Origin: Gimesia aquarii
GTDB taxonomy: Bacteria > Planctomycetota > Planctomycetia > Planctomycetales > Planctomycetaceae
DNA: 64,000 nt
NCBI RefSeq assembly: GCF_007748175.1
Contig: NZ_CP037422.1
Coordinates: forward strand, 3,664,020 to 3,728,019
Direction: 5' to 3'
Below the pieces are notes generated by a model. The model was given only the letters and a program-made list of their open reading frames with translations, searched no databases and had not been told where the DNA came from. The translations under genes and the position numbers were made by a program. Below are positions 13,538 through 20,961 of this stretch, piece by piece (the first letter of the stretch is position 1; each line of letters starts with the position of its first letter).

Positions 13538-15832
13538 ATGATCGACATTCAACGGTTCAAAACAGATTTAATTGCGCTTGGGTTGCTGGCAGTCACAGTC
13601 TTTCTCGGACTGAGTCTCTTCAGCTATGACCCCGCTGATCCTCCTGCGCAACTGGTCTACCCTGTCCGTGAAGCCGCTCAAAATCTGTGTGGAACTACAG
13701 GAGCCCATGTCGCTCATCTTTTGCGAACCGGCTTTGGTGTAGGTGCCTGGGGAATCTTTCTGGCGTTGATCGTGATTGATATGCGTATGTTTTCACGTCA
13801 ACAGGCAGTTGGCGCGATGGTAGAACTCTTTGGACTTGCGCTGATTTTAGCCTCGGTCTGTATTGTCAGTCAAATGATGTTAGGCAATAACAGCACGACA
13901 CCTCTGATTGGCAGTGGTGGTTATATTGGTGCACTTGGATTCTCATTTTTGGAAGCAAAATTTTCTGTTGCTGGTTCCTTAATTCTGTTAGCTTCCATGT
14001 TTTTTGCAGGGCTCTTATTAACAGCTGATACGATGCCTGTCCGGTTTCTTTTTTCCTGTCTCTCATTTCCGTTTCGAATTTTAAGCCGTGACCCTTCAGA
14101 ATTGGAGGAAGAAGCTGAAGAAGAATACGAAGAGGACGAAGACGAAGATGTCGTCGCTGAAGATGAAGAAGAAGAGTATGAAGAAGAAGTCGTTGCCGCT
14201 CCAAAACTGAAAAAAGCGAAAGTTCGAAAACCGATCAAAGTGAATCCGCCAGCGGGCCTTCGCCTGTCGCGCGAGCCTCGACCCATCGAGCAAAAAAAAA
14301 ACAGCTCGTATAAGCTGCCCGGGCTAGAACTTCTGGAAGAAGCGGAAAACTTTCCATTTGAGTTATTAGCGAAAAAAGCGGAAGAAGCAGCCGAAGTTTT
14401 GGAAAATACATTCGCCGATTTTGGCTTGGATATTCAAGTTTCTGAAATCGATACCGGTCCCGTTTTAACTCTATTCGAACTCAATTTGAAACCTGGATTA
14501 CGTGTTGCCAAAGTGACAGCACTGGCTCATGACCTCGCGGTCGCCTTACGAGTGCCATCAGTGCGAGTTGTGCCTTCTATCCCCGGAAAAAATACGGTGG
14601 GTGTCGAAGTTCCTAACGAAAAGCAAGTCATGGTACGTTTGAAAGAACTGATTGAGGCCTGTTCTCAAGAAGCAGATCGCAATCGAATTCCACTATTCAT
14701 GGGTAAAGACGTGAGTGGCCGCCCTCTGACAGCTGACCTGTCTAAACTGCCTCATCTATTGATTGCAGGACGTACTGGAACAGGTAAAAGTGTCTGTCTC
14801 AATACACTCATTCTTTCGTTACTGATGACGCGGACTCCCAACGAAGTCAAGATGTTGATGATCGACCCAAAAATGGTGGAGTTAAGTGGTTACAAGCGAA
14901 TTCCCCATTTGATGCACCCTGTAATTACCGATATGAAAAAAGCGGAAGCAGTTTTGGCGTGGGCTGTCGACAAAATGGAAGAACGCTATGACCTTCTCGC
15001 TCGCTGTGGTGCTCGGAACATTGAAAGCTTCAACAAACTCGGAAAACAAAAAATCTTAGAGCTGGCTGACATTGATCCTGATTCAGAAGAAGCACAGCAA
15101 ATGCCAGAAAAAATGCCTTCCATCGTGATCGTTGCAGATGAAATTGCAGATATGATGATGACATCAGGTAAAGATGTGGAAGCACACATTATCCGTCTGG
15201 CTCAGAAATCGCGGGCTGTGGGCATTCACCTGGTACTCGCAACTCAAAAACCAACCGTCGATGTCATTACAGGGCTGATTAAATCTAACCTCCCTGCCCG
15301 AATTTCGTTTCAGGTTGCCAGCCGTGGTGATAGCCGTGTGGTATTGGATGAAAATGGTGCTGATGCTCTGCTCGGCAATGGTGATATGCTCTACCTGGCT
15401 CCCGGAACCAGTAAACTGACTCGTGCTCAAGGAGCCTACGTGAGTGATGAAGAAATCGAAAATGTAATCGACTTCTTTGGCGATATGGAACCAGAATACA
15501 GTCCAGAACTGGCTCAAATCACAGCCGCAAACTCAAAGAAGAATAATGGTGGTGAGTCTGAACGTAAAGAGGACAGCCTGTATAATGAGGCAGTTGAAGT
15601 GGTTATTCGCGAAGGCCGCGGCTCTGTTTCTCTATTACAACGAGCACTTGGAGTAGGCTATGGTCGTGGTGCCCGTTTGATCGATTACATGGCAGAAGAT
15701 GGTATTGTCGGTGAGTACAACGGCTCACAGGCACGTGAAGTCTTGTATACAATCGATGAATGGGAAGCCGCAAAGCAAAACGACTTCCAAGACGATTATG
15801 AAGAAGAAGAATACGAAGAAGAGTTCGTATAA
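13538..15832 (+). CDS. ftsK: DNA translocase FtsK/SpoIIIE
   Basis: FtsK pumps chromosome ends through the division septum. The 764-residue product has an N-terminal membrane domain with about four helices (residues 8-175). A short linker follows, including a strikingly acidic Glu/Asp block near residues 188-222. The motor has an alpha/beta part, Walker A GRTGTGKS near residue 411, Walker B MLMIDPK near 442 and ATQKPTVDV. A C-terminal winged-helix gamma domain (GRGSVSLLQRALGVGYGRGAR) would read KOPS-like sequences. The ATG at 13538 is chosen; a TTG nine bases upstream is also in frame. The linker is far shorter than in E. coli FtsK. Confidence 0.95.
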   Translation: MIDIQRFKTDLIALGLLAVTVFLGLSLFSYDPADPPAQLVYPVREAAQNLCGTTGAHVAHLLRTGFGVGAWGIFLALIVIDMRMFSRQQAVGAMVELFGLALILASVCIVSQMMLGNNSTTPLIGSGGYIGALGFSFLEAKFSVAGSLILLASMFFAGLLLTADTMPVRFLFSCLSFPFRILSRDPSELEEEAEEEYEEDEDEDVVAEDEEEEYEEEVVAAPKLKKAKVRKPIKVNPPAGLRLSREPRPIEQKKNSSYKLPGLELLEEAENFPFELLAKKAEEAAEVLENTFADFGLDIQVSEIDTGPVLTLFELNLKPGLRVAKVTALAHDLAVALRVPSVRVVPSIPGKNTVGVEVPNEKQVMVRLKELIEACSQEADRNRIPLFMGKDVSGRPLTADLSKLPHLLIAGRTGTGKSVCLNTLILSLLMTRTPNEVKMLMIDPKMVELSGYKRIPHLMHPVITDMKKAEAVLAWAVDKMEERYDLLARCGARNIESFNKLGKQKILELADIDPDSEEAQQMPEKMPSIVIVADEIADMMMTSGKDVEAHIIRLAQKSRAVGIHLVLATQKPTVDVITGLIKSNLPARISFQVASRGDSRVVLDENGADALLGNGDMLYLAPGTSKLTRAQGAYVSDEEIENVIDFFGDMEPEYSPELAQITAANSKKNNGGESERKEDSLYNEAVEVVIREGRGSVSLLQRALGVGYGRGARLIDYMAEDGIVGEYNGSQAREVLYTIDEWEAAKQNDFQDDYEEEEYEEEFV

Positions 15833-15920
15833 CGCGGCATTTCGCCCTATTATTCTTTACTTATTGCCTTAAAAGATGTCTGAAGTCGTGAATTCTGTTT
15901 GACTACCACAGCCGCTCTGC

Positions 15921-15950
15921 TTATGATCTTTCCATTACAAAGCGTATAAT
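15921..15950 (+). promoter_or_regulatory. Candidate promoter of the cimA leader
   Basis: A perfect TATAAT at 15945-15950 has a weak TTATGA at 15921-15926, 18 bases upstream. Transcription would begin near 15957, about 30 bases before the leader peptide ATG at 15988. Confidence 0.45.
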
Positions 15951-15987
15951 TAGCCATTTTCACTAGGATTAGAAGGTCTTTTCGTCA

Positions 15988-16059
15988 ATGATGCCTGTTT
16001 CAAATATCGTCTGCGTCAGCAGCATTATTATTATTTGCGAAATTACAGGCTCACTATGA
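15988..16059 (+). CDS. Isoleucine-rich leader peptide of cimA (attenuator)
   Basis: A 23-codon open frame starts at the ATG at 15988 and ends with TGA at 16057-16059. It contains six Ile codons, four of them consecutive ATT (16024-16035), plus three Val and one Leu. AGAAGG at 15971-15976 could serve as its ribosome site, though the spacing of 11 bases is long. Its stop codon touches the antiterminator arm and it lies just upstream of a strong terminator and the citramalate synthase gene, the first step of isoleucine synthesis from pyruvate. This is the arrangement of an ilv-type leader peptide, where ribosome stalling at Ile codons senses charged tRNA. Expression is not shown by sequence alone. 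Confidence 0.7.
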   Translation: MMPVSNIVCVSSIIIICEITGSL

Positions 16060-16103
16060 CTTGAGGATCATTATCAATTTAACAGATTTTCAGAACCTCA
16101 GGT
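16059..16103 (+). promoter_or_regulatory. Antiterminator pairing in the cimA leader
   Basis: ACTTGAGG at 16059-16066 can pair with CCTCAGGT at 16096-16103 (8 bp, one G-U), which removes the left arm of the terminator. A ribosome at the leader stop codon would cover the first segment and allow termination; one stalled on the Ile codons would leave it free. An earlier hairpin, GCCTGT (15993-15998) with ACAGGC (16045-16050), encloses the Ile codons and may act as the pause or protector stem. Confidence 0.6.
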
Positions 16104-16122
16104 CACAACCTGAGGTTTTTTT
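16094..16122 (+). terminator. Attenuator terminator upstream of cimA
   Basis: AACCTCAGGT at 16094-16103 and ACCTGAGGTT at 16108-16117 form a perfect 10-bp stem with a four-base loop, followed by T residues to 16122. It lies 262 bases after the ftsK stop and 176 bases before cimA. It overlaps the antiterminator arm, which favours a regulatory rather than a simple end-of-ftsK role. Confidence 0.85.
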
Positions 16123-16297
16123 ATTGCATTGACCAAGACTCATCAAGGACTGTGACAAGATAACCTGAAAGAAAATAACAGGAGATCATTTCATAGTGCA
16201 AAAGGTTTATTTTTAGTGTGACTCGAACAGGATACAGTCTAAATCAACCAGCGACTCTTGAATTTTCAAAGAATAACAGAAAAAGAAAGCCCCTAAG

Positions 16298-17872
16298 ATG
16301 GCCCGAATTCAGATGTATGACACAACTTTGCGGGATGGCAGCCAGGGAGAAGGCATCAACTTCTCATTGGAAGATAAGCTGCAAATTACCGTAAAGCTTG
16401 ATGAAATGGGCTTCGACTATATTGAAGGTGGCTATCCGCTTTCAAATCCCAAAGACACAGAATATTTCCAGCGCGTCGCAGAAATGGATCTGAAACACGC
16501 TAAAGTCACTGCCTTTGGAATGACACGTCGTAAAGATATTGCCGCAAAAGATGATGTTGGCATGCAGGCACTCCGCGACTCCCAGGCACCCGTTGTTACT
16601 ATCGTCGGTAAGACTTGGGATTTGCATGTCACAGAAGTTCTACGAGTGAGTCTCGAAGAGAATCTGGCCATGATTACAGATTCAGTCTCCTTCATTAAAT
16701 CGTGCGGACGTGAAGTGATCTATGACGCGGAGCACTTCTTTGATGGATTTCGAGCGAATCCGGATTACGCTTTAAAAACGATTAAGGCAGCTGCCGAAGG
16801 TGGCGCAGATATCATTATCCCCTGCGATACGAATGGCGGAAGCCTGCCTGAAGTCATTGCCAAATATCTCGACCTCGTTCGAAGTGAGTTGAAAACCCCT
16901 CTGGGCATTCACTGTCACAACGATTGTGATGTCGCAATAGCTAACTCATTAACTGCGGTAGAGCATGGAGCCGTACAAGTTCAGGGTACGGTCAATGGAA
17001 TCGGCGAGCGTTGTGGAAATGCTGATCTGATTAGTGTGATCGCCAATCTAGTCACAAAACAGGAAGGCCATTCGGTTCTACTTGACAACAATTTACATAA
17101 TCTGACCGAACTATCGCGCTATGTTTACGAACTGGCAAATATGAATTTTCGATCGAGCCAACCGTTTGTTGGTAGTAGTGCCTTTGCACACAAAGGCGGC
17201 ATGCACGTTCACGCCGTCAATCGTATCGCCAGAAGTTACGAACACATCGAACCGGAAGTGGTTGGTAATGAGCGGAAAGTACTTGTCAGTGAGCTGTCCG
17301 GCCGTTCCAACATTGTCGCAAAAACGACAAAATATAAACTCGATCATGATCCAGAGCTTCTTACCAAAATCTTGGAAAAGGTTCAGGATCTGGAAAACAT
17401 CGGCTATCAGTTTGAAGCGGCGGAAGCCTCGTTCGATCTGCTCGTCAAAAAAGTCGCAGGAACATTCACACCTCACTTCGAGAAAATTCATTATCGAGTC
17501 AATGTTGAATCAGATCACACTCATGAACCGCTTACAGAAGCGACCATTAAACTAAACGTCAACAGTCATCAGGAACATGTTGTCGGCGAAGGCGATGGTC
17601 CTGTCAACGCATTAGACACGGCACTCCGCAAAGCCCTCTGCCCTGCTTACCCAGCACTCGAAAAGATGCATCTGGTTGATTACAAAGTACGTGTCATCAA
17701 CTCTGCAGAGGGCACTGCCGCCCGCGTACGAGTAGTCATTGAGAGTAGAGATGAACACGATGTCTGGAGCAGTATCGGAGTCAGTGAAAATATCATCGAA
17801 GCGAGCTGGCTGGCACTCGTAGATAGCGTCGAATACAAGCTCTATAAGGATAAAGGAACTTTTTCCGACTAG
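16298..17872 (+). CDS. cimA: Citramalate synthase
   Basis: The enzyme condenses pyruvate and acetyl-CoA to (R)-citramalate, the threonine-independent entry to isoleucine. The 524-residue product has the HMGL-like TIM barrel: YDTTLRDGSQGEGINFS with the catalytic Arg and metal Asp, GIHCHNDCDVAIANS with metal-binding His residues, and GTVNGIGERCGNADL. A LeuA-type C-terminal regulatory domain begins around residue 395. The sequence is closer to the CimA branch (EGINFS, YIEGGYPLSNPKD) than to 2-isopropylmalate synthase, but I infer substrate from this resemblance. A leader peptide with Ile codons lies upstream. The start ATG follows a weak AGAAAG site. Confidence 0.9.
   Translation: MARIQMYDTTLRDGSQGEGINFSLEDKLQITVKLDEMGFDYIEGGYPLSNPKDTEYFQRVAEMDLKHAKVTAFGMTRRKDIAAKDDVGMQALRDSQAPVVTIVGKTWDLHVTEVLRVSLEENLAMITDSVSFIKSCGREVIYDAEHFFDGFRANPDYALKTIKAAAEGGADIIIPCDTNGGSLPEVIAKYLDLVRSELKTPLGIHCHNDCDVAIANSLTAVEHGAVQVQGTVNGIGERCGNADLISVIANLVTKQEGHSVLLDNNLHNLTELSRYVYELANMNFRSSQPFVGSSAFAHKGGMHVHAVNRIARSYEHIEPEVVGNERKVLVSELSGRSNIVAKTTKYKLDHDPELLTKILEKVQDLENIGYQFEAAEASFDLLVKKVAGTFTPHFEKIHYRVNVESDHTHEPLTEATIKLNVNSHQEHVVGEGDGPVNALDTALRKALCPAYPALEKMHLVDYKVRVINSAEGTAARVRVVIESRDEHDVWSSIGVSENIIEASWLALVDSVEYKLYKDKGTFSD

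Positions 17873-18036: not shown

Positions 18037-20961
<2,925 letters not shown>

Follow-up and report, generated by a model that had tools for sequence, protein, structure and literature searches.

Upstream of the citramalate synthase gene (cimA) of Gimesia aquarii lies an element that is very probably a ribosome-mediated transcription attenuator, in which a leader peptide adapts cimA expression to the amount of charged Ile-tRNA available. An isoleucine attenuator had been proposed at this place by the initial annotation of the window (the whole stretch of 64,000 nucleotides analysed here, from a genome of 7.2 Mb), and this interpretation is strongly supported by comparison with related genomes. 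With the exception of one hairpin (1:2, see below), every testable feature of the sequence is in agreement with a leader-peptide attenuator.

Leader, terminator and cimA in the window

The gene at 16298-17872 (forward strand, as all features of the window given below) had been named cimA, and its identity was confirmed with the NCBIfam model TIGR00977 (692.5 bits for a cut-off of 450). The best threonine dehydratase candidate reached 280 bits, against a family cut-off of 379, with 298 of 380 positions covered, which is in keeping with isoleucine synthesis via citramalate. The valS gene (18037-20961) follows cimA after a gap of 164 nt devoid of terminator-like sites and is possibly co-transcribed with it.

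The annotated leader of 23 codons, including six Ile codons, was recovered at 15988-16059 with the translation MMPVSNIVCVSSIIIICEITGSL, and this reading frame is open and ends with a TGA stop in all 16 Gimesia genomes. Its start would be at 15988 or 15991, the first site being ATG in 14 of the 16 genomes; in the two others, the first site reads ATC and the second ATG. Alignment of these relatives revealed that the four consecutive ATT codons already noticed at 16024-16035, the putative control codons, are all invariant (16/16) and that a fifth Ile codon (16042-16044), either ATT or ATC, is kept in 16/16, whereas most other leader codons vary.

An intrinsic terminator is predicted between the leader and the gene, at 16092-16122. 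It consists of a 12-bp stem (16092-16119) followed by a T tract (-16.6 kcal/mol), is present in 16/16 Gimesia genomes and coincides within a few bases with the one first placed at 16094-16122. A stretch of 1.1 kb contains three terminator-like sites, for 0.8 expected, and that of the leader is the longest. The proposed antiterminator exists as well, although its extent had been drawn slightly too short: arm 2 (16057-16066), which begins at the leader stop codon, forms ten pairs with arm 3 (16096-16105), which lies within the terminator (duplex z -4.7), so that the 2:3 pairing and the terminator are mutually exclusive. The region 15975-16130 folds with -46.3 kcal/mol against -26.5 +/- 3.1 for shuffled sequences (z -6.4; 0/200 as low).

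In the 16 Gimesia sequences, 99.4% of the cells of the 2:3 antiterminator are paired, with one broken cell in 160, and no covariation of this helix is seen inside the genus because it is nearly invariant there. The covarying antiterminator stem anticipated by the initial annotation is found between genomes of the class and not within Gimesia. In the minimum free energy structure, arm 1 (15975-15998) pairs with 16045-16069 as hairpin 1:2, the type of hairpin that promotes termination in untranslated leaders of attenuators; of hairpin 1:2, 84.7% of the cells are paired in the 16 Gimesia sequences, with one compensatory pair (C-G/U-A, 4 sequences). The count of pairs changed on both sides did not exceed that of shuffles (103/500); the number of doubly changed cells and the covariation score did (1/500 each). 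Outside Gimesia, in a test covering arm 1 only within the ORF and thus incomplete, hairpin 1:2 reached p <= 0.05 in 3 of 82 genomes, which does not support it as a general feature.

Conservation of the layout in the class

The cimA gene was present in 56 of 59 relatives (no match in G005, G024 and G026) and 55 upstream regions were read, G041 being left out as its contig begins within cimA. Loci were taken from among the matches listed (30 of 54, 30 of 47 and 30 of 54 genomes), G054 and G057 were also added to the set and, among the 60 further loci, G065 (start not found) and G118 (6 nt upstream) were left out. An upstream region was counted as positive when it contained a terminator of -12 kcal/mol or lower and an ORF with at least 2 Ile per 8 codons, the stop of which is located 15-56 nt upstream of the terminator.

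Of the 105 upstream regions taken from the class, 81 show this layout. With the same rule, 7/930 shuffled sequences and 5/1123 control windows of the same loci were positive, and one of these five windows contains the real element of G019. In this genome, which belongs to another genus of the Gimesia family, the element is situated farther upstream and comes in addition to the count for these genera. The positives were distributed as follows: 16/16 in Gimesia, 14/18 in the other genera of its family, 0/7 in family f2, 22/29 in family f3 (Gemmataceae), 2/3 in f4, 26/31 in f5 and 1/1 in f7. A stricter threshold of 3 Ile in 8 codons was reached by 62/105. A few of the 24 negative regions contain both leader and hairpin, but their T tract is poor. 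The negative f2 genomes (G037, G042, G046, G050, G052, G055 and G058) probably belong to the Isosphaeraceae, the CimA of Singulisphaera being closest to theirs (72%, the next at 68%).

The distance from leader stop to terminator has a median of 31.5 nt and is 25-40 nt in 80% of the cases, the choice of ORF mildly favouring 31. Ile accounts for 17-36% of the leader residues in five groups, against 0.6-2.1% in shifted frames, and across families the leader peptides have little in common except Ile.

Pairing of arms 2 and 3 and folding model

Of the 82 genomes carrying the element, 57 have an arm 2:arm 3 RNA duplex energy more favourable than 95% of the shuffled sequences (p <= 0.05), and 25 have p > 0.05; the mean z is -2.5. 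When each arm 2 was combined with its own arm 3, the energies summed to -1322, against -1016 +/- 26 for permuted arms 3 and -1148 +/- 22 for exchange within families (n=67 in both cases); 0/20000 permutations were as low as the own pairs, overall as well as within families. Furthermore, the own arm 3 ranked best of 67 in 13 genomes and among the top five in 24, where 5 were expected.

Folding of the window's leader was modelled with the RNA under the ribosome masked, using assumed footprint sizes. As long as arm 4 is unmade, the ten pairs of 2:3 are predicted with the ribosome at each of the five Ile codons, arm 2 being free in these positions, whereas a ribosome at the leader stop covers arm 2 and abolishes the pairing. 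The truncated RNA also forms 2:3 in the model when it carries no ribosome and, after synthesis of arm 4, every modelled state prefers the terminator. It follows from these two results that the switch would have to be kinetic. Classical attenuators are understood as kinetic switches.

Leaders of the Gemmataceae

In genome G047 (genus g23), the cimA leader MSNVSAILVTASAVIGAVVIITTG ends 30 nt upstream of a terminator of -17.2 kcal/mol. Its own 2:3 duplex was not significant (p 0.14); in the same genus, those of G103, G038 and G056 were (0/200 each) and that of G111 was not (0.17). Of the seven negative Gemmataceae, four (G098, G106, G114 and G099) possess both leader and hairpin but a poor T tract, and in G087 the leader contains the hairpin motif described below. 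G117 contains two cimA-like genes, which are 70% and 63% identical to the query.

In the leaders of the Gemmataceae and of f5, Val is frequent alongside Ile (24% and 15% of the residues, respectively, against 1-3% in shifted frames) and ATT is preferred although cimA genes prefer ATC. For the Gemmataceae, the ATT:ATC ratio is 46:22 in the leaders and 35:113 in six cimA genes (Fisher p 1e-9). Multivalent ilv attenuators use the codons of more than one amino acid as control codons, and the abundance of Val would be compatible with a joint sensing of Ile and Val. In Gimesia, however, Val represents 7% of the residues and is scattered, whereas Ile represents 34% and forms a run; in the Gemmataceae, codons beyond the hairpin are variable and a Val run is missing from several leaders. 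A role of the Val codons as control codons is thus considered unlikely, and sensing of Ile is the reading retained.

Many Gemmataceae share a small hairpin within the cimA leader, GCGCAGGGAGTGCGC, with a 5-bp stem and the loop GGGAG (L295-L304 and other Gemmataceae loci). When 41 Gemmataceae genomes were searched for the exact sequence, it was detected in 10, once per genome and in all 10 cases 97-193 nt upstream of cimA, while the reversed pattern gave 0 matches. A 5-bp stem with loop GGGNG occurs in 14/29 Gemmataceae upstream regions versus 0/77 others. In a set of 20 sequences, which permitted small changes and included 4 extra loci, the hairpin shows two compensatory A-T to G-C changes, one G-U pair and one mismatch, and an ATT is found exactly 6 nt before it in 20/20 sequences. 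Tentatively, the hairpin may sharpen ribosome stalling at the preceding ATT codon.

The leader peptide core I-x-I-T-A-A-Q-G-V-R, recurrent in many Gemmataceae, could also be read as an arrest peptide, which would halt the ribosome by its own sequence and not through uncharged tRNA. Nevertheless, the part of this core that encodes the hairpin is fixed at the nucleotide level, which points to the RNA and makes an arrest peptide less likely. Since invariance in Gimesia is limited to the Ile run and a few further residues, and peptides of different families share little apart from Ile, nascent-peptide arrest appears highly improbable compared with stalling at Ile codons.

Promoter and separation from ftsK

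A promoter TTGACT-N17-TATGAT was identified by consensus scan at 15899-15927 and is present, with a variable spacer, in 16/16 Gimesia genomes. The TATAAT at 15945-15950, taken for the promoter in the initial annotation, occurs in 1/16 and this lack of conservation indicates that it is probably not the promoter. More generally, the pattern TTGACN16-19TANNNT was detected upstream of the leader in 64 of the 82 element-bearing genomes, against 16/1640 shuffles. The conserved promoter therefore defines a unit composed of promoter, leader, terminator and cimA, separate from ftsK. As ftsK ends at 15832 on the same strand, about 260 nt upstream of the hairpin, the latter might be imagined as a mere terminator of the ftsK transcript, next to an Ile run due to chance, but this is scarcely credible in view of the promoter located between ftsK and the leader and of the conservation of Ile codons, spacing and arm 2 alike. 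A T-box or another Ile-binding RNA, riboswitch or known RNA family, which a terminator linked to Ile could bring to mind, was rejected as having next to no probability: a search with 4227 Rfam models (15800-16400, both strands, E <= 5) gave no T-box or amino-acid leader family match and four chance-level matches, each at two-thirds of its own cut-off or less.

Codon specificity at leuA

The leuA gene was present in 55 of the 59 relatives, and 50 of the 55 upstream regions were analysed for at least 4 Leu per 8 codons and a terminator. A Leu-rich leader with a terminator was found in 39/50, versus 2/500 for shuffles: 17/17 in Gimesia, 14/14 in the other genera of its family, 2/6 in f2, 1/6 in Gemmataceae, 2/2 in f4, 2/3 in f5, 1/1 in f6 and 0/1 in f7. 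None of the 50 leuA upstream regions passed the Ile test and 3 of the 105 cimA upstream regions passed the Leu test. With Leu leaders at leuA, and Ile leaders absent there, the leader codons thus follow the product of the enzyme.

In the window's genome, the leuA locus (L002, G000:C1:4506866-4508347, reverse strand) is preceded by a leader rich in Leu, MSLMQIHNLLSLSLLLNLLTQARS, which a terminator follows at a distance of 32 nt. This attenuator-like element distinguishes leuA from ilvB, trpE, a trpE paralogue and hisG, which in the same genome have no such element, and a general habit of attenuation was consequently rejected. In G047, the strict rule is failed at leuA, where the leader MTASLLLLNLPLLGPSRGHCPSRVG is accompanied by a strong hairpin whose T tract is poor. 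The f2 genomes G042 and G052 account for the two Leu leaders among the six leuA regions read in this family, despite the absence of the element at cimA in all seven.

Occurrence outside the class

A wider comparison was carried out with a looser rule on the best 80 named loci among the matches listed. The rule was satisfied by 9/16 planctomycete-labelled loci, among which the Anammoxibacter and Anaerohalosphaeraceae loci are counted because we take them to be planctomycetes, and by 2/63 other loci (L088 and L106); the unlabelled L075 was negative. L093 (Phycisphaerales) and L103 (Phycisphaeraceae) were positive among these 80, whereas L080 and L083, both labelled Planctomycetia, gave a negative result. 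The candidate Ile-rich leaders preceding cimA in L106 (Desulfobacteria) and L088 (Abditibacteriaceae) may be due to chance. Elsewhere in the phylum, beyond the class, 17 loci could be read and three of them (L217, L224 and L226) were positive; L231-L233 were left out (start not found). The Ile-rich leaders with terminators of L093, L103, L217, L224 and L226 indicate that the element may have an ancient origin in this phylum or may have been transferred.

Discussion

From the sequence features described here, the following course of events can be proposed. Transcription would start near 15934 and a ribosome would translate the leader behind RNA polymerase. When Ile-tRNA is plentiful, the ribosome would reach the stop codon (16057-16059) and its footprint would lie over arm 2; arm 3 would then pair with arm 4 and transcription would end near 16120. 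When Ile-tRNA is scarce, the ribosome would stall at the ATT run and leave arm 2 uncovered, 2:3 would form before arm 4 emerges and the polymerase would continue into cimA. The element would thereby show how a phylum using the citramalate route regulates this step of isoleucine synthesis.

Leader-peptide attenuation requires a ribosome within tens of nucleotides of RNA polymerase. As attenuation needs this coupling, a conserved attenuator in the Gemmataceae offers a gene-level test of the segregation of transcription from translation, and it is because the element recurs in the family of Gemmata obscuriglobus that the finding matters most. The segregation claim for this species reportedly goes back to Gottshall et al. 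2014. Spatially segregated transcription and translation are mentioned as a claim for G. obscuriglobus in PMC6212462 and PMC5394234, and the cell plan underlying it is disputed in PMC6554331. In a genome-statistical study, Planctomycetota/PVC do not appear among the phyla listed for runaway transcription (PMC13323073), and their absence from that list agrees with transcription-translation coupling. We put forward, as a tentative and rather doubtful proposal taken as a whole, that in the Gemmataceae, probably including G. obscuriglobus, ribosomes close behind RNA polymerase control cimA and leuA, with transcription and translation unseparated at both genes, and that in many of them the 15-nt hairpin fixed 6 nt after ATT is a new module stalling a ribosome short of Ile-tRNA on that codon.

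The ilv, leu, trp and his operons of Proteobacteria use leader-peptide attenuators. The element described here would therefore be of a known kind, and what appears new is its target, its phylum and its bearing on coupling; a search of the open-licence literature yielded no description of an attenuator acting on cimA or occurring within Planctomycetes. In PMC4833913, leader genes located close to structural genes of Planctomycetes are treated as a reinitiation signal and not as attenuators. As outlined in PMC4833913 and PMC1183508, the proteobacterial attenuators share with the present element control codons for the amino acid of the pathway, an antiterminator 2:3, a terminator 3:4 and the position of the ribosome as switch. 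Unlike them, the element is found in Planctomycetota, it precedes cimA, whose product catalyses the committed step in Ile synthesis via citramalate, with leuA equipped separately, and many Gemmataceae have an extra invariant hairpin. In Corynebacterium, Mycobacterium and Streptomyces, candidate leader peptides and terminators have been described for ilvB (PMC1262725); they resemble the present case as a leader peptide and terminator at a branched-chain gene outside Proteobacteria, but their target is ilvB, which in the window's genome has no such element. The ilv-leu operon of Staphylococcus aureus, with its leucine-rich attenuator peptide (PMC5794164), likewise places a codon-specific leader before branched-chain synthesis genes; whereas that single operon senses Leu, the genomes analysed here have a separate Ile leader at cimA and Leu leader at leuA.
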